NCBI RefSeq assembly: GCF_013166655.1
Contig: NZ_JABKCA010000011.1
Location: 1 to 64,000 of the forward strand
Length of the DNA stretch: 64,000 nt
Direction of reading: 5' to 3'
DNA from: Lentimicrobium sp. L6
Lineage (GTDB): Bacteria; Bacteroidota; Bacteroidia; Bacteroidales; UBA12170
The position numbers and the translations under genes were made by a program. A model generated the notes under the pieces. The model was not told the DNA's origin, ran no database searches, and saw nothing but the letters and a program-made list of their open reading frames with translations. Below, piece after piece: positions 49,756-64,000 of the stretch (its first letter is position 1; each line of letters opens with the position of its first letter).

Positions 49756-51777
49756 TTACATTTTAATCCATTTTTGGATAGTTACTTCACCATTCTTTTG
49801 AAGTCTTACTAAATAAACTCCATTCTCCATTTCGGAGCCTTGAGAATTTCTACCATCCCAATTATACTGATAGCTTCCGCTAGATAATCTACTGTCTTCT
49901 AATCGCTGTATCAACTGCCCATTGATATGGAAAATCTCAAGCTGAACAGCAGCAGGCTCTTCCAAAACTAAACTGATGGTTCCATGATTATTGATTGGGT
50001 TTGGAGCAATAACAAAATATTCTTTAGAATCGAACTCATCATTAACACCTACTCCATCTGAAGCTACAATACTATGATAATTATTAGCTTCCGTTGTGAC
50101 AATAAGGCTATCATAAAAAATGGCTTTGCCTACTGCCACATCCAAATATACTTCAATAGACTCTGATGGTAATAACTCATAAGGATAAGAAGTGATTTCA
50201 GGAACAGTATGATTAATCCACCATAATGGAGAACCAGTTTCTCCTCTGACTATATTAGTTATTGCAGCAGGGCCATCACCAGTATTGTTTATAATGATAA
50301 CGTGCTCTTCAGTTTCATGAACAAATAAAGTATCAGGAGTGAATGTAATATTTTCAGAAACAGCTTCACCACTTACAGTAAATACAAATGGATCTGGAGC
50401 ACCAATATAAGGCATATTTTCGCTTCTTCCACTTTCATCGGCTGCATGAATATAGTAGGCCACTTCGTCACCTTCACTAGCGATAATATCAGCAGAGAAC
50501 ATCTCTTCTCCATTATCCGTCATGGTCATAAATTGGAAAGCTCCCCCATTGATTTGATAATAAACCAAAAGAGAATCTGCATAAAGACTTTCGTTGCTAT
50601 AAGGATGAATTTTAGCTTCAATGGTATAAGCGCTTTGTACTTCTACTTCGCCATGGAATGCTGGAATATGAGTGATTTTCAACATGCCGAAATCAGCAAT
50701 CTCATGGGTTCTACAGTGCAGAGCATCAGAGTTTAACCAACCATCGCTTCCTGCCATTACGGTAACAATATTATAACCCGGCATGGCTTCCTCGTAAGTT
50801 GCAATAGCAGTAGCATCGTGAGTGCTTCCTGTAATCGGCAAAAATACTGTATTGTTTAAAATGAGTGAATTAGTATAAGGTGTGTAAGGATAATTTCCTG
50901 GAGCATAAACTCTAATCACCTCAAATGGATAGCCATAAGCACAGTTTCTTGTGGCAAAGTAATTGGCAGCAGCTTCATAATCCTCATAACGATAATCACT
51001 TTCTGGAACTTGAGAAACCAATACCTTATCTACATCGAGGAATTTTCCCCAACAATCGATATGCATGATATAATCATCTAATGGATCAGTTACCACAAAA
51101 TTATCTGTCACCCCTAAATATTCTTCCATATAAGCATCTACTTGTGCATCTGAAATGGAGTTTTCTTCATAAACTAATTCTGTTTGAGCCGCAATGCCAA
51201 AGCCATCACACATATAGTTTCCACCTGTGTGAACAACAGGCATATTATAAACTGCAGCACCATATATATCGGCTATTTTAGCAGGAATAATATCATCATC
51301 TGGACGAGGTCTGTTATAGGTAAAGTTAACGATAGAAACCTGATCTTCTTCACGAATAAACCATGGACCGTAATCACGTGTCCAATAAGTATTATGAGGC
51401 TCCACCATAAAATCAACATTATCCATATTTACACCAGCATTTTCATACTGAGTAGTAACTGAGTTTTGTTGGCTAGTAGAATGTACTAAAGTGGTTACCT
51501 TAACCACATTCGACATTTCTACTATTAATTCCATTGGAATACCAAATGGATAAGCAATTAGAACCGCTTCCATGGGCTCAAACTCAGCAACTGGATTTAT
51601 AGGGCCTTCAGGAGCCTCGCTAGGTTGAAAGAATTTACCAACATTGCTTCTATTGTCATATTCTTCTTGTGATAACCATCTTCCTTTTTTCAATTCTTCT
51701 GAAGATAGTTGTTGCGCGAAAAGACTCATTCCTGACCAAAGAAAGGCCACAAATATCAATAGGTATTTTTTATTCAT
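49756..51777 (-). CDS. T9SS-exported peptidyl-arginine/agmatine deiminase-family protein
   Basis: 673 aa. Signal peptide (NKKYLLIFVAFLWSGMSLFAQ), then the PAD_porph domain at about residues 60-380: catalytic-type motifs WTRDYGPWFIRE near 129-140, HTGGNYMCDGFG near 180, MHIDCWGKFLDVDKVLVSQ near 237-255 and the active Cys in LHCRTHEI near 354. These positions run parallel to Asp130, His236, Asp238 and Cys351 of Porphyromonas PPAD. An Ig-like module (about 390-470) and a second sandwich domain follow, ending in a T9SS sorting domain (FVIAPNPINNHG to IQKWIKM). Secreted or surface deiminase; peptidyl-arginine versus agmatine specificity cannot be told. Confidence 0.85.
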   Translation of the reverse strand: MNKKYLLIFVAFLWSGMSLFAQQLSSEELKKGRWLSQEEYDNRSNVGKFFQPSEAPEGPINPVAEFEPMEAVLIAYPFGIPMELIVEMSNVVKVTTLVHSTSQQNSVTTQYENAGVNMDNVDFMVEPHNTYWTRDYGPWFIREEDQVSIVNFTYNRPRPDDDIIPAKIADIYGAAVYNMPVVHTGGNYMCDGFGIAAQTELVYEENSISDAQVDAYMEEYLGVTDNFVVTDPLDDYIMHIDCWGKFLDVDKVLVSQVPESDYRYEDYEAAANYFATRNCAYGYPFEVIRVYAPGNYPYTPYTNSLILNNTVFLPITGSTHDATAIATYEEAMPGYNIVTVMAGSDGWLNSDALHCRTHEIADFGMLKITHIPAFHGEVEVQSAYTIEAKIHPYSNESLYADSLLVYYQINGGAFQFMTMTDNGEEMFSADIIASEGDEVAYYIHAADESGRSENMPYIGAPDPFVFTVSGEAVSENITFTPDTLFVHETEEHVIIINNTGDGPAAITNIVRGETGSPLWWINHTVPEITSYPYELLPSESIEVYLDVAVGKAIFYDSLIVTTEANNYHSIVASDGVGVNDEFDSKEYFVIAPNPINNHGTISLVLEEPAAVQLEIFHINGQLIQRLEDSRLSSGSYQYNWDGRNSQGSEMENGVYLVRLQKNGEVTIQKWIKM

Positions 51778-51936: not shown

Positions 51937-52042
51937 CAGCTAAGAAAAGGAAAAAAAATCTCTACAAAGCCACAATATTTGAAATCTTCATTCATACATC
52001 TGTATAGCTGCGTAGCCAGATAGATTATTGGCATTTCTTCCC

Positions 52043-52050
52043 TACATTTG
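52043..52050 (+). promoter_or_regulatory. -7 box directly against the Sfp gene start (possible leaderless mRNA)
   Basis: TACATTTG is an exact TAnnTTTG match ending four bases before the ATG at 52055. No good -33 element was found at the expected distance. Confidence 0.3.
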
Positions 52051-52054
52051 CCTC

Positions 52055-52753
52055 ATGCTTAGCTTATACACATTTCAACTATTAGAGGAGGGTGAATTTA
52101 ATAGATTCTACCCAGAAATATGCTCCCAACTACCTATTTCTGTTCAGCAAAAAGTAGATACCTTTAGATTTCCTGCTGACAAACAAAGGAGTTTGATGGG
52201 TGATTTAATGGTGAGAAAGTTCTACAGTCAAAAGCTTAACCAAAATCCAAAGGAAATTGACTTTGAGTATACCGAGCATCAAAAGCCCCTGCTAAAAAAT
52301 GTAGATGGAGAATATTTCAATATCAGTCATAGTGGGAATTATGTGGTGGTGGCCTTTAGTGACAAACCTGTTGGCATTGATGTGGAATTGATAAAAAAAG
52401 ATCGAAGGAATATTGCAGAACGATTCTTCACTCCTTCAGAAATTATAGACATGAATGCGGCCGGTACCGAAGAAGAACAAATCAAATATTTCTATCAACT
52501 TTGGACCTTAAAAGAAAGCTATATGAAAGCCATTGGTGATGGCTTAACCATGTCATTAAGTTCATTTTCATTTGCTAAAAATGAGGAAGGTTACTATTTG
52601 TCCAAAAGCAAATATGGATCGGATTGGTTTTTTCATTCTCAAGAATGGAATGGTGATGCTTTTTTGAGTATTTGCTCTAAATATCCCCAGATACAAAACC
52701 AAAGCCCTTTTGAAATAGAACTCGCTCGAAAGCTTTTTACATCATCTGCTTGA
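52055..52753 (+). CDS. 4'-phosphopantetheinyl transferase (Sfp-type)
   Basis: 232 aa from the ATG at 52055; a TTG at 52028 lies upstream of the -7 box and is rejected. Sfp-type signatures are FNISHSGNYVVVAFSDKPVGIDVELIKKDRRNIAERFF (about 88-125; G-I-D-V-E binds Mg) and FYQLWTLKESYMKAIGDGL (about 148-166; W-x-x-K-E-x-x-x-K). It transfers phosphopantetheine from CoA to carrier proteins of fatty-acid, polyketide or peptide synthesis. No carrier-protein gene is nearby, so this is a stand-alone housekeeping or secondary-metabolism gene. Confidence 0.85.
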   Translation: MLSLYTFQLLEEGEFNRFYPEICSQLPISVQQKVDTFRFPADKQRSLMGDLMVRKFYSQKLNQNPKEIDFEYTEHQKPLLKNVDGEYFNISHSGNYVVVAFSDKPVGIDVELIKKDRRNIAERFFTPSEIIDMNAAGTEEEQIKYFYQLWTLKESYMKAIGDGLTMSLSSFSFAKNEEGYYLSKSKYGSDWFFHSQEWNGDAFLSICSKYPQIQNQSPFEIELARKLFTSSA

Positions 52754-52800: not shown

Positions 52801-53925
52801 CTAAGCCTTTAGTTTCAGAGCAAATTCTTCAGCGACCCGTGCGAGATAGTTGGATGAGTTTTTAATGGAATCGTCGATATTTTTAGCATAAGCCTTTACT
52901 TCAGCCAAATAATCTACTCCATATTTCGCTAAGTCTTGCTCATCGAGCTCACTGAAACCACAGAAAACAGCTAATTTTTGATTGGTCTTTGAGTCCATCA
53001 CTCCTTTGATGACTTTTCCAGAGAAGGTTTGCTCATCGAGCCTCCCCTCGCCCGATATCATCCAATCGGCTCCTTTAATCTGCTCATCGAAATGGGCTAT
53101 TTCTTTAATTAAAGCTATGCCTGATTTTAATTCAGCATCTAAAAACAAAACTGTTCCAGCTCCAAGGCCTCCCGCCGCTCCAGAACCTGCAATATTCTGT
53201 AAATCAAAGTTGAACTGATTATTAATAATGTTACTGAAATTTTGCAATCCTCCATCTAAGGTGGCTACCATTGGTGCATGGGCTCCTTTTTGAGGAGCGT
53301 AAATATGAGCTGCACCATTTTCACCAAATAATGGATTATCCACATCACAAGCTACATGGAATTTAATGTCTTTGAGTTCGGAAAAAACAGATGTGGTATC
53401 AATATGCATCAATCGGTTTAAATCTTCTCCTTTCCCCAATAATTCTTCATGATTCAAATCATAAAATCGATAGCCTAGGGCACGGGCCATCCCCATACCT
53501 GCATCATTAGTAGCACTTCCTCCAATTCCTAAAATGATATGCAGGGCACCTTTTTCAATGGCATGCTTAATGAGTTCACCCGTTCCAAAAGTTGAGGTTT
53601 TTAATGGGTTCAGTTCTTCATTTTTTAATAGACGAATACCTGAAGCATCAGCCATTTCTATGAAAGCCATTCTCTTTTTTGGTGAATATAAATAGGATGC
53701 TTTAATCATTCTTGCTAGCGGATCATGTACTTCTACTTCCACTCGTTCACCTCCCATATAATACTCCAATACCTCCACCGTTCCGTCGCCACCATCGGCT
53801 AAAGGAAGCTTCTTTATTTCTACGGAGTCCAAATGTTTTTTAAGGGCCTCCTCCACAATATCACAAAACTGTAATCCACTGAGAGCGCCTTTAAACTTAT
53901 CGGGTGCGATTATGATTTTATACAT
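52801..53925 (-). CDS. Glycerate kinase (GlxK/GarK type)
   Basis: 374 aa, standard length. The N-terminus YKIIIAPDKFKGALSGLQFCDIVEEAL and LPLADGGDGTVEVL match the GlxK/GarK family; GIGGSATNDAGMGMARALGYRFYD near 138-160 and SGAAGGLGAGTVLFLDA near 248 are further family motifs. It phosphorylates D-glycerate (to 2-phosphoglycerate in this family). It is the downstream end of the minus-strand glycoside locus, 125 bases after the GH38 gene, separated by a hairpin. It fits as the step that uses glycerate from glycosyl-glycerate breakdown. Confidence 0.9.
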   Translation of the reverse strand: MYKIIIAPDKFKGALSGLQFCDIVEEALKKHLDSVEIKKLPLADGGDGTVEVLEYYMGGERVEVEVHDPLARMIKASYLYSPKKRMAFIEMADASGIRLLKNEELNPLKTSTFGTGELIKHAIEKGALHIILGIGGSATNDAGMGMARALGYRFYDLNHEELLGKGEDLNRLMHIDTTSVFSELKDIKFHVACDVDNPLFGENGAAHIYAPQKGAHAPMVATLDGGLQNFSNIINNQFNFDLQNIAGSGAAGGLGAGTVLFLDAELKSGIALIKEIAHFDEQIKGADWMISGEGRLDEQTFSGKVIKGVMDSKTNQKLAVFCGFSELDEQDLAKYGVDYLAEVKAYAKNIDDSIKNSSNYLARVAEEFALKLKA

Positions 53926-53943
53926 TTGTCAATTCTTTAAAAC

Positions 53944-53970
53944 GGCACCGTAAAAATACTTCACGGTGCC
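53944..53970 (-). terminator. Hairpin between the GH38 and glycerate kinase genes
   Basis: Minus strand GGCACCGT and ACGGTGCC pair perfectly around an 11-base loop, followed by a weak TTTT. It may terminate partly, so glycerate kinase would be expressed below the upstream genes, or it may be an RNA-processing site. Confidence 0.4.
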
Positions 53971-54050
53971 ATGGGGGTGTTATTAATCAAATCAATTATT
54001 GAACCAATCCTGTTTACGAAACCAGTTCATGAAAAAAAAATGTTTCAAAT

Positions 54051-56882
54051 TTATTCTGCATCGGGGTTTTTAAACTGCTTAATATAATCGTAAACTCTAC
54101 GTTGAACTCTAGCTTCGTTTAGTCCATAACCCAATTCAGTAGTCTTCACTTCATTAAACCTATTGCGAGCTAGAATAGCCGATAATTGCGCTTCCAATGC
54201 TGTTCTACGCCACATGGGATGATGGGCTCTATCTTTCAATGCGTCCGCTCTTTCTATTTCCGATTGAATATCTTCCTCTGTTACATAAGCGGCATATTCA
54301 TAATCTTCGAAAGATTCTCTGTTTTTATTTTGGTCAACAATGAGCTCACAATCTTTACTCATTTCTAAGTCTTCTCGATCAATATCCAATCTCAAGCTGA
54401 AAATCTTTTTAGAGGCCAAGTCAAAGGATACCGCTGACTTGTCCAGCTTCAATTCTTCTTGTGCTTCTTCTAAAAGATTGCTTAGACTGGCTTTGTTTAT
54501 CTTGAAAGCACTATTCACCGATACTTTTGTACTTTGCTCTGCTGAATTATATCCTCTAATAATGATGGATTTACCATCCTCGCTTCTCTTTATAGCCGTA
54601 ACTTTCATGGTATTTAATGAATCACTAGCCGAAAAGTAGGACTTATTTGTTTTTATCTCACCTTGATGTTTATCGGTTGTACAGCTAATGAGATCGGAAT
54701 TATAAATATTCGATTTTTGACAAACTTCAGCTTTCTCTATATTTCCTTCGTGGGGATAAACGGCATATTCAAATTGCATTTCACGCAGACACTGGGCATC
54801 TGGAGTAAAAATCTCTGGCCCTGCATCGCCAATTCTAGAATTGATTTCTTTGGCTATCCATCCTACTGAGCGGAATAAAGTAAGCGCAATTTGGTCATCG
54901 TTTATCACCTGATATTCTGGCAATCCTTTTGAAAAAACCGACAAACCATCCACACCATCATTTAAATCTACAAATTCACGATTCAAGAAAATAGTATTGG
55001 GTTTGGCTTCTCTAGCTCCAATAATCACTTTTTTTACATCCTCAGGAATAGAAGACTCATCATAATCTTCAATATGAATGGGACGCTTCACCACATCGAA
55101 TGGGCTTCCAGCATAAGCGATATCCGTATCAACACCACTTGGGAAAATCACACGCATCAGGTGGTCCTTTACGGTATTTCTCAGGTGAGTTTTACATTTT
55201 ACAATTCCTGAATCCGACTCAATGGTATAATAATTTATCAAAGGAAGCTTCCTCAATTTTTCGCTTCTGCAAGTATGGTTTTCAGCATCAGACTCTGGTA
55301 GCTCCAAATCATATTGAGTACGAATGATAACTTTTGAATCGCTTTGCTCTACAATTTCTATTTGTGCTTCTACATGTTCCGAAGTAATAATTTTATCTAC
55401 ATCGGGATAAGAATAATTATACTCATCACCAGTATCCGCTCTATCTTCTATGATACCTAAATTCTCAAATAACTTCCCACTACTCTTGTGAAGAATGGTA
55501 AAACTACCATTACTGTTGAAACATACTTTAATATGTTTATTACTAATATCTAAACCCCCAACTATAAGCTTATCTTCGTTTTCATCAGACTCCTCTATTA
55601 GTTTATATCCCATAGCTGGAATATCTTTCACATAATAAGAAGCATCTTCGAAATCCACATTCTCGGAGCGCTCTTGCATACTGGTATTGAAGACAATTTT
55701 CACATCCTCAGTAGCAGAATTAGAAGTATCGATAAGGCTACAAAGCTCTTTCAGTTTTTGTTCTGTTAAGGATTGAGTAAGCATATGAACCACTCTGGTT
55801 CGGTTTTCCATATCGGTATGAACATCATCGATACTCACCCCACAAATGCTATCGTGAGGATGATTTTTGAGGAGGGTTTTCCAAGCCTCTTTTATCTGGG
55901 TTTGTTCATATTCGCCTCCCAATGCCCATACTAAAGTTGACAAAGGTTCTACGCGTTTTTCGAGTGCCTTTTGCTGTTCATCGTTTTGCAGTTTTAAATA
56001 CATACGTGCCGACATCACGCCTGGAAAAACAGAAATAAACCTTCCACTATATAAAGCGCCTTCTAAGGTTTTCAAATCGGGTTTCTCCTCCATCACATCA
56101 CGGATATATTTCACCGGATTCGATTGGATGATTTCAAACTCCTCGGTATCCATTTTCCCATTACTGATATAGGGCTGGATATCATCAGGAATCATCTCCT
56201 GATCGTAACCATTCATCAATAAAATTTGATTGGTGGTGGCAAAAGGGCTGAGCTTGTTTACTTCATCGTAAACTCGATCTTTCATAATGTCATTATGCTC
56301 TGCTAATCGCATCACATTTCTATAACTATCTAATAAATACATGGATGGAAGCACTGTTCCATCGGGTGATTTCCACATAAACTCTGATTGTACATCAGTT
56401 GGCTCCATTTCTACACCACGCCAAACAAATAAGCCTTCCAAGTTAAACTGATTATGAAGCTGGGTAGTTTGTGAAATCTGACCGAAATTATCAAGCATCC
56501 AACCCACATTCATGGCGCCACCTAATTCTTTAGCCGCTTGAATTCCATAGGTGAAATTTCTTACCAAAGACTCCTCGCTGAGCAGTTGCCAATCGGGTTG
56601 TAAATAATAAGGACCTATGAATAAACGATTCTGCTTCACATATTTTCTAATCTGACGCTTGTACTCGTTTACATTATACTTATGCTTGTCCAACTCCTCA
56701 AAATAATCTTCTACCATAGCCATTTGACCATCGAGCACAAAGATATAATCTGGCTCTTTCTCAAACATCCTAAATAGATTATTAAAAAATGGAATCAACC
56801 ATTCGTTGGTATATTTACTATTGAGATACCATTCGCGATCCCAATGGGTATGAGATATAATATGAGCAGTTTTCTTTTTCAT
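54051..56882 (-). CDS. GH38 alpha-mannosidase-type hydrolase, likely mannosylglycerate hydrolase
   Basis: 943 aa. No signal peptide, so cytoplasmic. N-terminal zinc site HIISHTHWDREWY (residues about 6-18), catalytic nucleophile Asp in NVGWMLDNFGQI near 127, QPDWQLLSEESLVRN near 98-112 and the second zinc His in NHPHDSICGVSIDDVHTDMENR near 340. These fit the GH38 fold. The bacterial subgroup includes E. coli MngB, which hydrolyses mannosylglycerate (phosphate). The neighbouring glycerate kinase and glycoside genes suggest mannosyl-glycerate or mannosylglucosylglycerate here; general alpha-mannosidase activity cannot be excluded. The gap to the GH13 gene is 24 bases. Confidence 0.85.
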   Translation of the reverse strand: MKKKTAHIISHTHWDREWYLNSKYTNEWLIPFFNNLFRMFEKEPDYIFVLDGQMAMVEDYFEELDKHKYNVNEYKRQIRKYVKQNRLFIGPYYLQPDWQLLSEESLVRNFTYGIQAAKELGGAMNVGWMLDNFGQISQTTQLHNQFNLEGLFVWRGVEMEPTDVQSEFMWKSPDGTVLPSMYLLDSYRNVMRLAEHNDIMKDRVYDEVNKLSPFATTNQILLMNGYDQEMIPDDIQPYISNGKMDTEEFEIIQSNPVKYIRDVMEEKPDLKTLEGALYSGRFISVFPGVMSARMYLKLQNDEQQKALEKRVEPLSTLVWALGGEYEQTQIKEAWKTLLKNHPHDSICGVSIDDVHTDMENRTRVVHMLTQSLTEQKLKELCSLIDTSNSATEDVKIVFNTSMQERSENVDFEDASYYVKDIPAMGYKLIEESDENEDKLIVGGLDISNKHIKVCFNSNGSFTILHKSSGKLFENLGIIEDRADTGDEYNYSYPDVDKIITSEHVEAQIEIVEQSDSKVIIRTQYDLELPESDAENHTCRSEKLRKLPLINYYTIESDSGIVKCKTHLRNTVKDHLMRVIFPSGVDTDIAYAGSPFDVVKRPIHIEDYDESSIPEDVKKVIIGAREAKPNTIFLNREFVDLNDGVDGLSVFSKGLPEYQVINDDQIALTLFRSVGWIAKEINSRIGDAGPEIFTPDAQCLREMQFEYAVYPHEGNIEKAEVCQKSNIYNSDLISCTTDKHQGEIKTNKSYFSASDSLNTMKVTAIKRSEDGKSIIIRGYNSAEQSTKVSVNSAFKINKASLSNLLEEAQEELKLDKSAVSFDLASKKIFSLRLDIDREDLEMSKDCELIVDQNKNRESFEDYEYAAYVTEEDIQSEIERADALKDRAHHPMWRRTALEAQLSAILARNRFNEVKTTELGYGLNEARVQRRVYDYIKQFKNPDAE

Positions 56883-56906
56883 CTTCTCTTGTTTTTATTC
56901 TTGAAT

Positions 56907-58568
56907 TTAGACTGATTTCAACCACAAATAAGCATAAGGCTTCAGTTGTGTTTCTACAGGTTTCCAATATGTTATATTGACTTTATTGCTAATATGGGAT
57001 TCTATATTAATGGCTTTATCGGAAAAATTAAATAGACAATAAACACTTTCCGATTCGCTTTTCCTTTCGATAATAAACAAAGCATCTTCATTGGAAAAAA
57101 GAGCTTGACTAAAAGGATGGAATGCATCTTCTTGTTGACGCAATTCCAGTAATTTCTTATATTCTGAATAGACTCTATATCTTAGACTTGACTTATCTTC
57201 AAGCTCCCTATTCAAATCATCAACTTGAATTTTAGCTCTGTTGATTCTTCTATTTATGCCCGAAGCCTTCACTACCTCCACATCATTCTCCGAACCAAAA
57301 ACAGAATGATAGTAGACACCAGGCACGCCATTAAAACTCAACATCACTGCTTGAGTGAGCATAAATCGTTTGGCACGATAGGCTATACTTTCTTCTGGTG
57401 AACTGAGCAAATCCATATAATTACAATTGAGCTCATAGGGTGTTTTACTGCCATCGGGATTGGATTTATAGGAAACAAAACCACCATGACATTCTGCTTT
57501 ATTGGCCAACATGGAAATTTGCTCATCACTAACTATCCCTTGCAAAGGACGAACTCCAATACCATCGTGGCTAGCCGTAAAGTTGAAGAAGCAAGTTTTA
57601 TCAGAAGGCAATTTTAAAGACTGTGCCCAATTGCTTAAGGTGTCAACTTCCCTTGCATGTAGGCTATATGCCAATAATGGAGGCAAACTGAAATTATAAA
57701 TCATGTGTGCTTCATTCAAGCCATCTCCAAAATAGGAGATATTCTCGGGATGAGGAACATTGGTTTCTGTGATTAAAACTACTTGTGGTGCTATTTGTTC
57801 AATAATCTTGCGGTAAGCAATAATGATTTCATGGGTTTCATCTAAATGTATACAGGTAGTCCCAAGCTTTTTCCACATAAAAGCAATGGCATCTAGACGA
57901 ATAAATTTTGCTCCCTTTGAAATATAAAACAACAACACTTCCAAGACTCTCAAAAAAACCTGAGGATTCTCATAATTTAAATCTATCTGATCTTCAGAAA
58001 AAGTAGTCCAAATATATTTTTCTTGCCCTTGTTTTAAAAAAGGATGTAAGAGTGGTAAAGTTCGTGGACGAGTCACTCGATGTAAATCAGGATGCTTGGG
58101 ATTGGCTTCAATAAAAAACTGGTCATAGTTTTTATCTCCGCTTAAAAATCCTTGGAACCAATCAGATGATTTAGAAATGTGGTTAATCACCGCATCAAAC
58201 ATCAACTGAAATTCTTGATTGAGCTCCAAAACTTCCTTCCAAGTACCAAATTCGGGATTGACCTCTTTATAATCTACCACCGAAAAACCATCATCGGAAG
58301 TAAATGGATAAAAAGGAAGAATATGGATGGTATTGATCATGGATTTTAAATGTGTAGAACATACCTTCTTGAGACTTGTCAAATTGGGCTCATCACCCTG
58401 AATAAAACTGTCGGCATAGGCAATCAAAATCACATCTTCCTTACTCAGTAGAAAGTCCTTCTTTTCAATTAAGTCACTATACTCCTCAACTAACTTTGCT
58501 ATAGCCGACAGTGTTTCATTTAATTGCTCCGGATATAAAAATTCGATATGTTGCTTTATGATATCCAT
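56907..58568 (-). CDS. GH13_18 sugar phosphorylase, likely glucosylglycerate phosphorylase
   Basis: 553 aa from the ATG at 58568; an alternative TTG at 58574 would overlap the GT stop. The GH13 barrel has HILPFYPFTSDDGFSVVDYKEVNPEFGT near 82-110, nucleophile Asp in FIRLDAIAFMWKKLGTTCIHL near 222, acid/base Glu in VVLITETNVPHPEN near 266 and the third Asp in NFTASHDGIGVRPLQG near 328. The family includes sucrose phosphorylase and the glucosylglycerate phosphorylases. The glycerate kinase and GH38 genes beside it favour glucosylglycerate; specificity is inferred from context. Product would be alpha-glucose-1-phosphate plus D-glycerate. Confidence 0.82.
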   Translation of the reverse strand: MDIIKQHIEFLYPEQLNETLSAIAKLVEEYSDLIEKKDFLLSKEDVILIAYADSFIQGDEPNLTSLKKVCSTHLKSMINTIHILPFYPFTSDDGFSVVDYKEVNPEFGTWKEVLELNQEFQLMFDAVINHISKSSDWFQGFLSGDKNYDQFFIEANPKHPDLHRVTRPRTLPLLHPFLKQGQEKYIWTTFSEDQIDLNYENPQVFLRVLEVLLFYISKGAKFIRLDAIAFMWKKLGTTCIHLDETHEIIIAYRKIIEQIAPQVVLITETNVPHPENISYFGDGLNEAHMIYNFSLPPLLAYSLHAREVDTLSNWAQSLKLPSDKTCFFNFTASHDGIGVRPLQGIVSDEQISMLANKAECHGGFVSYKSNPDGSKTPYELNCNYMDLLSSPEESIAYRAKRFMLTQAVMLSFNGVPGVYYHSVFGSENDVEVVKASGINRRINRAKIQVDDLNRELEDKSSLRYRVYSEYKKLLELRQQEDAFHPFSQALFSNEDALFIIERKSESESVYCLFNFSDKAINIESHISNKVNITYWKPVETQLKPYAYLWLKSV

Positions 58569-58570
58569 CC

Positions 58571-59902
58571 TCAAAATATTTTTGCTAGCATCTTTTGTAA
58601 ACCATCGATGGACAGTTCGCGTTTTGCTGTATTATAATTTTCTTCTACTTGTTTTGTTCTATAATCAGCATCCAAAAGGTATTTAATAGATTCATCTGCG
58701 GCTTTTTCTATTTTCTCTTCATCAACACGCACCCAATTATTATCGGATTGATGTTGATGCCCAAATGAAAGCACATTGAACTGATACTTTTCGATATCTG
58801 ATTGATAAACGGGATATTTATAAACAGCCACAGGCAATTTGGCCACCAAAGCTTCTAAAAACTGGTTTCCCCAACCCTCCAAAATACTTGGATAAGTCAC
58901 CAAATCGGCCATGGTATAAACATCCCATAAGGAGAATTTCTTCTCCTCAGTATTTTCACTTCTCTCGGGTTCAACATTTGAACTGATGTCTTTTATCTTG
59001 ACGCCTTTTTCCAAAGCATAAAGCTTCAATTTCTTTAAATATTCTGGGGATTCTGACTGACCAGCTAGGACTAAGTATATATGACTTTTCTCCGTAAATG
59101 ATTCCCCATTATAGCCTTTCTGGTTGACGAGTAGGTCTCGTTTTTTCTCCAGAGCTGCTGCATAATCTATGGCTATTTCAATGGCTTTTCGCTCCACCAC
59201 TCGTGTGGCTTGAAGCAAAACAATATCGGAATTCTGAATTCCAAATTCCCTCCTCATCTCTCGGTTATAATCATCCACCTTCATCAAGTCATGATCAAAA
59301 TCGAAAACATTGGGAACTACATCGGCTTCTACTCCATGTCTAGATTTTAACTCGCCTTGCGCAATGCTATTGATACAAACATGCTCAATGCGTGGATGCA
59401 CAGGAGGAAAATAATCCTTCAGCATGTCTTCAATCATTTTATGATTAGGATGGGCATATAAATCTCTCTCCCAGTAAAAATCGTGGTGATGACATATGGC
59501 TTTCACTTTAGACTTCTTTATGGCATTGACAAAACCAATTCCCGCAGGCAATCCCCAACCCAAGGAAAGAATATTATTAGGTATCAACACATCTATGGCA
59601 CGGCATCGAATAATTTCTAGCAAAGCTTGTTCAATGAGTTCAGCCACCATGAGTATTCTGCCCCTAAGTTTTTCTTCTGACCAAGGATACTCTGTTTGGC
59701 CATAAGCTTGCTGCACTATTTTGTTATTAATAGCATATTGATAATGCAGCTCAGGAATAATCTCTGCCTCTCCCCTTTTATCGCTTCCGGCAATAAAAAT
59801 GACTTCATGCCCAAGCTGTTCAAGTGCTTTTTTCCACTTGTCCATCTCCAAGGAAACACCATCGGTTTCACCGACTCTAAAATGACATAAGGCTATTTTC
59901 AT
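58571..59902 (-). CDS. GT4-family glycosyltransferase
   Basis: 443 aa, GT-B fold. Acceptor side KIALCHFRVGETDGVSLEMDKWKKALEQLGHEVIFIAGSD, with glycine loop ETDGVS; linker HHHDFYWERD near 145; donor half ILLQATRVVERKAIEIAIDYAAAL near 235 and the E-x7-E motif EGWGNQFLE near 356. GT4 retaining transferases use a sugar nucleotide. The position inside an apparent catabolic operon (3 bases from the phosphorylase ATG) suggests it mannosylates or glucosylates glycerate-type acceptors, like the mannosylglucosylglycerate synthases of Rhodopirellula, but the acceptor is not shown by sequence. No signal peptide. Confidence 0.78.
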   Translation of the reverse strand: MKIALCHFRVGETDGVSLEMDKWKKALEQLGHEVIFIAGSDKRGEAEIIPELHYQYAINNKIVQQAYGQTEYPWSEEKLRGRILMVAELIEQALLEIIRCRAIDVLIPNNILSLGWGLPAGIGFVNAIKKSKVKAICHHHDFYWERDLYAHPNHKMIEDMLKDYFPPVHPRIEHVCINSIAQGELKSRHGVEADVVPNVFDFDHDLMKVDDYNREMRREFGIQNSDIVLLQATRVVERKAIEIAIDYAAALEKKRDLLVNQKGYNGESFTEKSHIYLVLAGQSESPEYLKKLKLYALEKGVKIKDISSNVEPERSENTEEKKFSLWDVYTMADLVTYPSILEGWGNQFLEALVAKLPVAVYKYPVYQSDIEKYQFNVLSFGHQHQSDNNWVRVDEEKIEKAADESIKYLLDADYRTKQVEENYNTAKRELSIDGLQKMLAKIF

Positions 59903-59917
59903 GAGCTCTAATAATTA

Positions 59918-61558
59918 TTATCCAAATATTTGCGGTACGAATAAACTAAAGACGAAAATCACCATAAAGAATACGATAAGCATGATTCCTTCTTTGGAGA
60001 AAAAATCTTCTTTTCTAATTTTATAATTAACTTGTGAGGTTTTGTTATTGGGGTCTTTCCTGATATAACTTACTACATAAGCTATAATCACACACATAGC
60101 AAATCCGGTAAAATTCAACCAAATCCAAAAGATATCGATTCCTGGATCGAAACCGAAAATTTGCTGCATGGTTTTAGAAAAAACCAGATTAATCAGTACG
60201 GAAAGAATAATACCTGCATTCATTCCATACTTATTCACTTTCTTGGAATAAATAGCCAATAAGAAGGTGGCTAAAACAGGTCCATAAAATACAGAACCAA
60301 TAGCATTTATAATTTCAATTACTGAGCTCTCACTTCCTCCTAATAAAAAAGCACTGGCAATACAAACCGCTCCCCAGAAGACTACAGCACCTTTTGAAAC
60401 CATCATATATTTCACTCCAGAAAGTTTCTTTTTCCCTCTGTTAAAGAAATCTTCCACGGTAACTGCTGATAAAGAGTTTACGGTAGAACTTAAAGAAGAC
60501 ATGGCTGCTGATAAAATCCCCACCATTAAAATACCTATTAAACCATGAGGTAAATAATTAACGATAAAAACAGGAACCATTAAGTCAGGTTTAATTCCAG
60601 AAGACGCATACTCTGCTGGGAAATATCTTTGTGTAACTACAGCTAATTGATCCACAAATTCTGGTGCCACTAAAATAAAACCGCCAAGTACCAATCCTAA
60701 ACTACAATAAATTAAAACCACTGGGAATCTTAGTACTCCATTTGCAAATAATAGCTGACGAATTGTTTTTTCATCTTTAGCAGATAAAAGTCTTTGGGCT
60801 TGAGTTTGGTCGGTACCATAATAAGAGGCATAGAGAAAGAATCCTCCAATAATCATGGGCCAAATACCATATTCACCATCTCCAAAACCGAAGTTATTAT
60901 TGATAACTTGTAACCTTTCAGGATCTACACTTGATAAAGATCCACCACTATCTGCCATTAGGAAGTAACCATAAACTAAGGCAATGACTAGTCCTCCGAA
61001 AAGAATCACCATTTGGATGGCGTCGCCCCAAACCACAGCTTTCATACCCCCTTGCCATGAATAAATAATGGTAACAATACTAATGAGCGGAATGGTATAA
61101 ATGAAATCGATATCCAATACTGCTTGTAGTATGATGGCAATGGTATAGACCATAACTCCAGTACTTAAAGCTCTAGATATCTGAAAAACTACACTTAAAA
61201 TCATTCGAGTTGAAGCATCAAATCTACGCTCCACAAACTCATAAATACTCACTACACCAGAACGGAACAAAGGCGGAACAAGTACGACCATTAAAAAGAA
61301 CATGGCCAATGGAACGGAAAACTCAAAGGTTAACCATTTCATTCCTCCTCCAGCTTTTAAAGCCACAAAGGCGGGTGCAGAAACAAAGCTAATGGCAGAC
61401 AATTGAGTAGCCATAGTTGACAAGCTCAAAGGCAACCAGCCCAAGCTTTTCCCTCCTAAAAAATAATCAGTGGAGTTTTTATTCTCCTTAAAGAAATAAC
61501 CCATTCCTAGGAATCCTGCAAAATACACTAGTATGATAACATAGTCTAGCCAATTCAT
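59918..61558 (-). CDS. Sodium:solute symporter (SSS family)
   Basis: 546 aa with about 13-14 membrane helices in the LeuT fold. MNWLDYVIILVYFAGFLGMGYFFKENKNSTDYFLGGKSLGWLPLSLSTMATQLSAISFVSAPAFVALKAGG shows the SSS N-terminus, and GMKAVVWGDAIQMVILFGG near 168 plus SAAMSSLSSTVNSLSAVTVEDFF near 345 are family signatures. It imports a solute with Na+ across the inner membrane. It sits between the TonB receptor and the glycosyltransferase, so it probably carries the sugar or glycosyl-glycerate taken up by the receptor. Confidence 0.88.
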   Translation of the reverse strand: MNWLDYVIILVYFAGFLGMGYFFKENKNSTDYFLGGKSLGWLPLSLSTMATQLSAISFVSAPAFVALKAGGGMKWLTFEFSVPLAMFFLMVVLVPPLFRSGVVSIYEFVERRFDASTRMILSVVFQISRALSTGVMVYTIAIILQAVLDIDFIYTIPLISIVTIIYSWQGGMKAVVWGDAIQMVILFGGLVIALVYGYFLMADSGGSLSSVDPERLQVINNNFGFGDGEYGIWPMIIGGFFLYASYYGTDQTQAQRLLSAKDEKTIRQLLFANGVLRFPVVLIYCSLGLVLGGFILVAPEFVDQLAVVTQRYFPAEYASSGIKPDLMVPVFIVNYLPHGLIGILMVGILSAAMSSLSSTVNSLSAVTVEDFFNRGKKKLSGVKYMMVSKGAVVFWGAVCIASAFLLGGSESSVIEIINAIGSVFYGPVLATFLLAIYSKKVNKYGMNAGIILSVLINLVFSKTMQQIFGFDPGIDIFWIWLNFTGFAMCVIIAYVVSYIRKDPNNKTSQVNYKIRKEDFFSKEGIMLIVFFMVIFVFSLFVPQIFG

Positions 61559-61595
61559 CTGCTGTAGTTTTTGTGATTTATAATGTTCTGAAAGT

Positions 61596-61630
61596 TAAAA
61601 AAAGAACCGGAGGTGAACAATCCTCCGGCT
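61596..61630 (-). terminator. Terminator between the TonB receptor and the symporter
   Basis: Minus strand AGCCGGAGGA and ACCTCCGGTT pair around TTGTTC, followed by a T7 run. Downstream genes may therefore be expressed at a lower level or from their own start. Confidence 0.75.
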
Positions 61631-61646
61631 CAAACAAATCATAAAC

Positions 61647-64000
61647 TTAGAATGTAAATGTTGCTCTAATGAACAATCTTCTTGGCAATATTGGACGACC
61701 AACAAAATAAACACCACTATTTGATTGTGATAAATCACGTGGATTACCTTCTGTAAGTCCTTTAGAATCTGTTAGGTTAAATACAGCTGCACCAAGGCGC
61801 AAAGTTTCTCCGTTATCACCTAAACGCATGGTGTAACCAGCGTCAAGTCTGAATATATTAATGGCATCTAATTCTACATTATTACTATCATCTGTGAATT
61901 TTTTACCTGTGTGGCTCATGGAAACTCCAGCATCAAATTTTTCACCAAAATAATCTAAAGCTAGATTTGATAAGAAGTTAGGTTGTCTTGCTAATTTATT
62001 TCCAACATACTCTGGAGTAGATTTATGCTCGTCATACTCGTGGTTTTGATAAGTTAAACTACCACTGAAGTGTAAATACTTCACGAATTCATAATCCCAA
62101 GTAGCTTCAACACCTATACTACGTGTACTCTTAGTGCTTACATCTTCTATAATTGTTCCAGGGTTATTTGGATCATCAATTAATCTCACATCTCTTCTGT
62201 CATTTAAATCAACATAATAACCAGCGATGGTAGCTTTTATTTTCTTATTGGCATATTTAGCACCAATTTCACCTTGATAAATCTTCTCTGTTTCGTAAGA
62301 ACCGACAGTTCCGTCAGATGAAACCTGAATTCCACGAGGTTGAGGGAAGAAATAACCCTTAGTTAAGTTACCATAAAGATTTACATTTTCATTTAACTGA
62401 TAGTTAGCTGCTAAAACGCCAGCCCAGTCTGTATCTTGACCATTACCAGTTAAATAGGCATTATTTCCCCAACTTACAGTCTGCAATTCAGAGGAAAGAG
62501 ACTCATCTTCGCTCATTTGGTAAGTTGTATTACCTTCTCTAGTTACATCAGCACTAATTTTCTCTACACGTAAACCTACGTCAATTCTCCAACGACCAAT
62601 TTGCATTTCGTCCGTTAAATAACCGGCCATTTTATTGGCAGTAATGAAGTTATTAGCATATGCCGCACCTGGATTAAAAACACCATTCTGGCTCAATACC
62701 ATATCGTTTCCACCTGAGGTATAAGTAATGTCCACCAACTGTGGAATAGAATTAAATTCACTTACATATCTTGATTGAATATTTTGGTCTTCCGCTTCAC
62801 TGCGAGAGAAGAAACCTCCTAAAGTAACGTGGTGTTCTAATTCACCAGTAACCCATTTTTGAGTCAAGTTCATTTCACCAGCTAAATCAGTCATCGGACG
62901 ATTACGATCTAATAAAGTATTCACTAAAACTTTGTCAGAATTAGGCATTGTTCTAGTAGTGCCTGTATTTGTTCCTACAATATTTGTAGCTTCAGGGTCT
63001 ATAGCTGTTACAAAATCAGTTAAAGATTGAGGATTTCCAGAACCCGCTAAGAATAGGTTAAACTGGTGCTGATAGCGAGCATAACGAAGTTTAGTGTTTA
63101 AACGTAAACCGCTAGAAAATTCTTGTTTATAATCGGCCATAAAATAACCACCTTTGGTAGAAACACCATCTTTTATTGGAGTATGATAAACTCCATTAGG
63201 AGTTTGATAAGAAATATTGCTGGCATGCACCGTTTGGATAGTATTCACTTCTTCACCATCGTTACCTGTAGCAAATTCTCTACTATCTCCATCTAATGGA
63301 AGGGGCAAGAAAAATTGTACTCTATCATCAATATATTGACCAGATAAAACTAAAGAACCATGGTCGAATAATTGTTTAACATTACCTCTTAATTGAAAAC
63401 CTTGTGTTGGAAGACCCGTTTTGATAGGACCTTCATCATAACGATAGAATCCACTAAGAGCGTAATAAGTTTTAGAACCTTCACCACCTAATTTTCCACC
63501 ACTATAGAAATCAGCTTTCATGCGACCTTGATCGGCAGCTTCAAATTGAATAATGTTTTCAGGAGTTTCTGTTCCTGTTTTAGAAATATAGTTGATTAAA
63601 CCAGCAACAGAACCTGCGCCATAAAGAATAGCAGCACCACCACGAGGGAAGTCTAACATACGAATACCAAAATCGTTTCTTACATAAACATCATGTGCAG
63701 ATGAGTTCAATCCGAAAGTACTAATTGTAGGCATTCCATCATACTGTAATGGATTAAATACATATTGTCCACCAGAAGGTAATCCACGAACAAATACATT
63801 AGTTGCTACTTCACCTCCTCCACCTTCAGCGGTAATTCCAGGAATCGAACGAAGGATGTCAGCTTGTCCGCTGGCTGCCTTCATTTGAATTTCTTTTGCT
63901 TTCATGGATGTCATAGACATGGCTGCTTCATTTTCTGTACGGACAGTCATTGAACCTGTAATGGTGACCTCCTCAAGCCCAACTCCACTTGCTAAAATAA
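61647..64000 (-). CDS. TonB-dependent outer-membrane receptor (5' end outside the window)
   Basis: At least 784 aa; the frame stays open to the window edge beyond the ATG at 63950, with upstream residues ILASGVGLEEVTITGS, so that ATG is internal. The plug domain begins there (EEVTITGSMTVRTENEA) and has GQADILRSIPGITAEGGGGEVATNVFVRGLPSGGQYVF; barrel strands run to the C-terminal aromatic FIRATFTF. TonB receptors import large or scarce ligands across the outer membrane. It is upstream of the symporter and glycoside genes in the same direction and probably brings in their substrate. No SusD partner is visible downstream. Confidence 0.88.
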   Translation of the reverse strand, partial: ILASGVGLEEVTITGSMTVRTENEAAMSMTSMKAKEIQMKAASGQADILRSIPGITAEGGGGEVATNVFVRGLPSGGQYVFNPLQYDGMPTISTFGLNSSAHDVYVRNDFGIRMLDFPRGGAAILYGAGSVAGLINYISKTGTETPENIIQFEAADQGRMKADFYSGGKLGGEGSKTYYALSGFYRYDEGPIKTGLPTQGFQLRGNVKQLFDHGSLVLSGQYIDDRVQFFLPLPLDGDSREFATGNDGEEVNTIQTVHASNISYQTPNGVYHTPIKDGVSTKGGYFMADYKQEFSSGLRLNTKLRYARYQHQFNLFLAGSGNPQSLTDFVTAIDPEATNIVGTNTGTTRTMPNSDKVLVNTLLDRNRPMTDLAGEMNLTQKWVTGELEHHVTLGGFFSRSEAEDQNIQSRYVSEFNSIPQLVDITYTSGGNDMVLSQNGVFNPGAAYANNFITANKMAGYLTDEMQIGRWRIDVGLRVEKISADVTREGNTTYQMSEDESLSSELQTVSWGNNAYLTGNGQDTDWAGVLAANYQLNENVNLYGNLTKGYFFPQPRGIQVSSDGTVGSYETEKIYQGEIGAKYANKKIKATIAGYYVDLNDRRDVRLIDDPNNPGTIIEDVSTKSTRSIGVEATWDYEFVKYLHFSGSLTYQNHEYDEHKSTPEYVGNKLARQPNFLSNLALDYFGEKFDAGVSMSHTGKKFTDDSNNVELDAINIFRLDAGYTMRLGDNGETLRLGAAVFNLTDSKGLTEGNPRDLSQSNSGVYFVGRPILPRRLFIRATFTF

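Follow-up and report, generated by a model that had tools for sequence, protein, structure and literature searches.

The closest described systems for the use of glycosyl-glycerates are the mngR-mngA-mngB genes of E. coli, in which a cytoplasmic GH38 enzyme (MngB) releases glycerate from a mannosyl-glycerate under a local repressor, and the loci of glucosylglycerate phosphorylase (GGaP, EC 2.4.1.352). The latter enzyme is represented in E. coli by the characterised YcjM (PMC8950772), encoded in the ycj cluster next to genes for an importer and a repressor, and GGaP loci with a glycerate kinase as neighbour have also been described (PMC7178133). Each gene family treated here was already known singly, as were GGaP beside glycerate kinase and mngAB. 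We analysed a 64,000-nt stretch of DNA (the window) at the start of contig NZ_JABKCA010000011.1 of Lentimicrobium sp. L6 (Bacteroidales; genome of 5.14 Mb), whose minus strand carries, from 64000 down to 52801, genes for a TonB receptor, an SSS symporter, a GT4 glycosyltransferase, a GH13_18 enzyme, a GH38 enzyme and a glycerate kinase. We consider it likely that this operon imports external glycosyl-glycerate compatible solutes, namely glucosylglycerate (GG), mannosylglycerate (MG) and mannosylglucosylglycerate (MGG), and uses them as food, probably under LacI control. The third of these solutes, indicated by the role of the GT4, would perhaps be the main substrate. We infer both the substrates and the direction of the GT4 from comparisons of sequences.

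In the proposed pathway, the TonB receptor and the SSS sodium symporter, the latter as the inner-membrane step, would carry the intact solute into the cytoplasm. GH38 would free mannose from MG, and the GT4 (perhaps also GH38) would take mannose off MGG, either by phosphorolysis to mannose 1-phosphate or by transfer to GDP, leaving GG. GH13_18 would then convert GG and phosphate to glucose 1-phosphate and D-glycerate, and in this way the energy of the glucosyl bond would be kept as glucose 1-phosphate. Glycerate, the shared product, would be phosphorylated by the glycerate kinase and enter glycolysis.

The prediction of GH13_18 as a GGaP is the firmest assignment of the locus. The protein carries TETN at the acid/base loop, in agreement with the (T/S)ETN mark of GGaP (PMC7178133), and its loop A reads TPYELN, with Glu present, PYELN being a second mark of this enzyme (PMC10608839). 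It is 44% identical to YcjM across 515 aa. Nearly all the GH13_18 copies of related loci retain the TETN/PYELN marks, those of L044 and L047 differing by a residue. Two copies lack the marks: in the GH13_18-like genes located beside a GT4 in Methylothermaceae (L056:10650-12416 and L059:2638-4371) TETN is gone and the catalytic motifs are partly lost, and the activity of these divergent enzymes has probably changed or been lost.

The GH38 protein, the sole GH38 of the window genome, has the complete four-domain set (Pfam), and its zinc and nucleophile motifs HTHWD, DNFG and HPHDS are intact in the alignment with MngB, with 26% identity across 901 aa. We consider that it probably works like MngB, and we do not file it as MngB itself. 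The best evidence for its substrate appears to be an exchange of enzymes. In fact, in a congener (G674, locus L110) and in a metagenome-assembled genome (MAG) of Flavobacteriales (L041), the same operon has a PF22422 (GH63-type) enzyme in place of GH38. Among solved structures, the L110 protein is closest to TTHA0978 (4wva), the mannosylglycerate hydrolase (MgH) of T. thermophilus, and then to a mycobacterial GH63-type glucosylglycerate hydrolase (GgH; PMC6608630). As the interchanging enzymes are a glycosidase of GH63 type and an alpha-mannosidase of GH38, MG is the plausible common substrate, and we propose that GH38 is an MG hydrolase, perhaps acting also on MGG. Outside the window, the window genome has two more PF22422-like genes (G000:C14:10775-17312), whose open frames code for about 460 and 700 aa.

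The GT4 matched the NCBIfam model of mannosylglucosylglycerate synthase (MggS; NF041101) over 442 of its 443 aa with 420 bits, the runner-up having 35 bits. This score is below the curated cut-off of 640, which one of the control proteins exceeds; among the controls only T. maritima persists at E 1e-30. An earlier reading of the window from its letters (the sequence-only reading) had named the gene simply a GT4, which is right for the family and missed both this whole-length match and the role. In a tree of 38 relatives (a set that does not include the MggS of T. maritima and Petrotoga), an uptake clade was separated from a synthesis-like clade with values of 99-100 in the Shimodaira-Hasegawa-like approximate likelihood ratio test (SH-aLRT). 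The window GT4 falls in the clade in which 12 of the 13 rows had been labelled beforehand as uptake loci, the thirteenth adjoining an SSS gene, and whose loci have TonB/SSS or ABC importers. Loci of the second clade have genes for a HAD phosphatase and further glycosyltransferases. Two Chloroflexota uptake loci fall on this second side of the tree, as a group of their own, and importers are therefore not confined to the clade of the window. Among the residues fixed in the clade of the window and fixed differently in the examined synthesis-like clade are Gln347 within EX7E, Ala232 directly before the conserved Thr-Arg, and His7, Phe8 and Gly11 in the N-terminal loop. We take these positions to sit at the donor phosphates in GT4 structures, which makes a change of donor plausible, if unproven. 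The AlphaFold model of the GT4 (predicted local distance difference test, pLDDT, 93.5) has a predicted GT-B fold, with MshA, BshA and sucrose-phosphate synthase as neighbours in the PDB, and comparison of this predicted fold does not separate phosphate use from nucleotide use; the GT4 profile gave no match among the PDB sequences at E 1e-6.

Two further observations concern the same family. A third, long-branched MggS-family clade occurs in the order of the window (L112-L115, L120 and L121), with GH13_18 not nearby, and in Candidatus Uabimicrobium amorphum (L045:8372-11263) a GT4 of the uptake clade is paired with an SSS gene, GGaP not being nearby.

Glucosyl-phosphoglycerate synthase (GpgS) was found above its cut-off (390-396 bits against 262) in G143, G384 and G211, where it is the GT2 gene of the second-clade Bacteroidota loci; as this GT2 is a true GpgS, those loci look biosynthetic. 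Of the 11 genomes with uptake loci that were tested, none had GpgS above the cut-off, and the same holds for the window genome, G674 and G296. Moreover, the genomes of Halanaerobacter (L040/G688) and of the Mycoplasmatota MAG RS_13_21 (L047/G693) have the GT4, GH13_18, glycerate kinase and an ABC importer, and no GH38, PF22422 or GH125 was found genome-wide in these assemblies, which may be incomplete. If these two hosts use MGG, the GT4 would be the best candidate for cleaving its mannosyl bond. In an Anaerolineaceae MAG (L052, 8006-11248), a GH125-like domain and an MggS-like GT4 are in a single open frame of 1080 aa, an arrangement that fits consecutive steps of breakdown better than opposed activities. 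The C-terminal half of the GH125-like partner matches GH125 alpha-1,6-mannosidases by profile (AlphaFold model with pLDDT 64). In L039 a GH125-like enzyme adjoins a ROK kinase. The core is linked with the metabolism of glycerate by the CdaR-like (diacid-type) regulators of L039 and L040 and by L042, which encodes a galactarate dehydratase, a dapA/KDG-aldolase-type lyase, a hydroxyacid dehydrogenase and 2-hydroxy-3-oxopropionate reductase.

On account of the distribution of GpgS between the sister clades, of the two core genomes with neither GH38, GH63-type nor GH125 enzymes, of the fusion, of the GH125-ROK pair and of the glycerate context, we lean towards a catabolic GT4. Phosphorolysis would be likelier than GDP-dependent reversal, given the parallel with GH13_18. 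That the MggS-like GT4 of the uptake clade is an MGG phosphorylase or a GDP-dependent reverse mannosyltransferase, arisen within a synthase family and completing an energy-saving MGG route across several phyla, is a proposal to which we give about even weight for and against. As of 2022, the only known GT4 phosphorylases were trehalose phosphorylases (PMC8950772).

A biosynthesis-like cassette was also seen in Bacteroidota (L033, L034, L035, L116, L117, L122 and L123), with an M20-type peptidase homologue, GpgS, a HAD phosphatase and GGaP. An extra GT4-like gene of 480-640 aa is present in the 3 examined versions with an MggS-like GT4 and absent from the 4 GG-only versions.

The GT4 could also work in the direction of synthesis. 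In such osmolyte salvage, GG would be imported under salt stress and mannosylated with GDP-mannose to MGG, which would serve the cell as a compatible solute of its own and of which GH38 and GH13_18 would dispose at lower salinity. This would suit a member of the MGG synthase family and halophiles such as Halanaerobacter and Halanaerobium, and a synthase adjoining degrading enzymes would make a turnover cycle. We nevertheless judge it unlikely: the uptake genomes are without GpgS, the synthesis-like GT4 clade is a separate branch, the open frame of L052 would be futile if the GT4 made the substrate of the hydrolase, and the glycerate kinase, the CdaR-like and LacI regulators and the galactarate-to-glycerate genes indicate catabolism. 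Likewise, recycling of the cell's own osmolyte, an option in the sequence-only reading, seems less likely than use of external solutes since neither GpgS nor mannosyl-phosphoglycerate synthase (MpgS) was found. It is improbable that GH38 and GH13_18 form a working pair for MG and GG only, with the GT4 serving an unrelated mannosyl transfer, as the GT4 gene overlaps that of GH13_18 by 4 bases and is found adjacent or close to it in the majority of related loci, in several phyla; one operon (L111) does lack the GT4, and in nature MG and GG are commoner. Use of sucrose or alpha-mannan oligosaccharides, in which GH13_18 would be a sucrose phosphorylase and GH38 an N-glycan mannosidase, we regard as very improbable. 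The top named NCBIfam match of GH13_18 is indeed sucrose phosphorylase (224 bits, under the cut-off of 334), the solved relatives of GH38 include the alpha-mannosidase 2wyh, and a GH32 gene adjoins the locus of the congener; however, the loop A motif of sucrose phosphorylase, which ends in YQ, is absent from GH13_18 and the GGaP motifs are present, for which reason we rejected this assignment, and the operon has a glycerate kinase and neither SusD nor a secreted glycosidase. In the congener, the GH32 and a second GH13 enzyme follow the operon (L110:1314-4567), which suggests that sucrose-type sugars are used together with it.

The use of GG, MG and MGG as food also has points against it. Under this model the activities of GH38 and the GT4 on MGG would overlap in part, no gene for handling mannose 1-phosphate was found within the operon, and the GH38 score against the MngB equivalog PRK09819 is well short of its cut-off of 1138 bits. 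MGG has been reported from Petrotoga and Rhodopirellula only (PMC3694870), and its supply is therefore uncertain. In the window genome the best PRK13915 (GpgS) match had 47 bits against the cut-off of 262, with the ADP-glucose-dependent Ggs route not searched, and PF09488 (MpgS) was not found, with GT78 mannosylglycerate synthase not searched. The characterised T. maritima relative of the GT4 reportedly, according to Fernandes et al. in 2010, makes MGG from GDP-mannose and GG, so that synthesis chemistry is possible for the GT4.

As regards regulation, a divergent LacI-family gene lies beyond the TonB receptor (probably starting at 64429 of the contig, MKRVTLKDLAK), and an operator-like palindrome, GTAAACGTTTACGTAA, is placed between the two genes at 64348-64363; both were absent from the sequence-only reading. 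With up to 2 mismatches allowed, GTAAACGTTTACGTAA is a single copy in the genome, no further operator copies being found elsewhere in it, and weak copies within the window are at about chance level. It is identical at the matching place in Marinifilum (L036) and has one change in Carboxylicivirga (L038). We propose GTAAACGTTTAC as the candidate LacI-binding sequence. Since the LacI gene is divergent and the palindrome unique and conserved, the locus is probably served by a repressor and an operator of its own, and the operon is probably self-regulated under LacI control; the ligand of LacI we infer as part of the model.

The coordinates of the six genes are given in Table 1. The families assigned by Pfam and NCBIfam agreed with the six same-strand genes, in the same order and closely spaced from SSS to GH38, of the sequence-only reading. 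Precisely, the intergenic distances are 88 (TonB receptor-SSS), 15 (SSS-GT4), -4 (GT4-GH13_18, an overlap), 24 (GH13_18-GH38) and 125 bases (GH38-glycerate kinase). The TonB receptor is present as that reading had it, and only in part, because the end of the window truncates the gene; the whole product has 875 aa and a signal-peptide-like N-terminus. The glycerate kinase exceeds the TIGR00045 cut-off of 168 bits and matches Gly_kinase with 431 bits. The 52801 end of the locus faces a convergent 4'-phosphopantetheinyl transferase gene (52028-52753). No SusD partner adjoins the TonB receptor, so we rejected a polysaccharide utilisation locus in favour of a small-solute locus. Elsewhere in the window, 49756-51777 encodes, judged by eye, an agmatine/peptidylarginine deiminase-like protein with a signal peptide and an apparent type IX secretion C-terminal domain.

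Table 1. Genes of the predicted glycosyl-glycerate operon and the evidence for each assignment
Feature	Coordinates	Strand	Evidence
TonB-dependent receptor, plug + beta-barrel + CarboxypepD_reg-like N-terminal domain (as in relative L037)	61647-64274 (in window to 64000)	-	Pfam
SSS-family sodium/solute symporter	59918..61558	-	PF00474 137 bits; TIGR00813 above cut-off
GT4, mannosylglucosylglycerate synthase (MggS) family, uptake-locus clade	58571..59902	-	NF041101 420 bits, tree
GH13_18, predicted glucosylglycerate phosphorylase (GGaP)	56907..58574	-	alpha-amylase/GH13 match; TETN, PYELN, YcjM similarity
GH38 alpha-mannosidase, MngB type, cytoplasmic (signal peptide not apparent)	54051..56882	-	PRK09819 480 bits, motifs
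Glycerate kinase, GlxK/GarK type	52801..53925	-	TIGR00045 411 bits

The comparison of neighbourhoods across Bacteroidota, which had been suggested with the first reading, showed that the six-gene order recurs in Marinifilum (L036), Carboxylicivirga (L038) and another Bacteroidales MAG. With the same order kept in these three genomes at a GT4 identity of 55-80%, chance does not account for the cluster. The operons of L036, L037, L038, L041 and L111 (the last having the same operon minus the GT4) begin with a TonB receptor orthologue, SSS relatives are found in the operons of L036, L037, L038, L041, L045, L110 and L111, and the glycerate kinase is the last gene in L036-L038 and L041. In Bacillota, Mycoplasmatota and Chloroflexota, the GT4 and GH13_18 genes have ABC importer genes as neighbours, frequently accompanied by glycerate kinase and by CdaR-like or LacI regulators. 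The locus is rare: a GT4 of the window's clade was found in the window genome only among 395 sampled Bacteroidota genomes, and in the window genome and one congener among 295 genomes of its order; the GT4 locus is absent from two other genomes of the genus. The sequence-only reading had seen in the locus the uptake and turnover of glycosyl-glycerates, a view strongly supported by the GGaP motifs, by the GH38/GH63-type swaps, by the glycerate kinase and the CdaR-like regulators or further glycerate genes of more distant loci, and by the absence of GpgS and MpgS from the genome.

Mannosylglycerate occurs in red algae. These had been put forward as the source of the solute, which is possible, but they are one source of several, and GG supplied by cyanobacteria or mats is no less likely. 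Marine cyanobacteria, planctomycetes, red algae and thermophiles all produce glycosyl-glycerates. GG is among the main osmolytes of Prochlorococcus NATL2A (PMC11631117) and a prominent solute of a saline lake mat (PMC3985010), and Rhodopirellula produces MGG (PMC3694870). In many producers no sink of GG other than GGaP is known (PMC7178133), and the operon is a candidate for a full route of consumption in Bacteroidota. If the proposal is true, an MGG-opening enzyme would be identified, a gap in osmolyte recycling would be closed, and GT4 phosphorylases would extend beyond trehalose (PMC8950772). Marinifilum caeruleilacunae, Halanaerobacter jeridensis and Halanaerobium salsuginis are hosts suited to direct testing.

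The full set had not been recognised as a described locus in the sequence-only reading, and the combination and a catabolic GT4 are apparently undescribed: the literature searched, largely outside subscription papers, gave no catabolic MGG/GG operon with a GT4, no TonB/SSS form and no GH38/GH63 exchange. Given this scope, lack of description is not proof of novelty. For the ycj cluster and other GGaP loci, the same literature describes no link to GT4, GH38 or TonB/SSS import. The GH63-type MgH of T. thermophilus and GgH of M. hassiacum are not homologous to the window GH38; a relative of theirs occurs in the sister operons, where it presumably catalyses the same reaction as GH38. The window GT4 resembles the MggS of Petrotoga and Thermotoga in its whole-length family match and in retaining EX7E and the conserved Arg/Lys, and differs in its context of importer and glycerate kinase and in the absence of GpgS. 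Finally, whereas the mng system of E. coli uses a phosphotransferase system and a phosphorylated solute, the window operon would import its substrate by SSS/TonB and use it unphosphorylated, and to a GH38 26% identical to MngB it adds a GT4, a predicted GGaP and a glycerate kinase.

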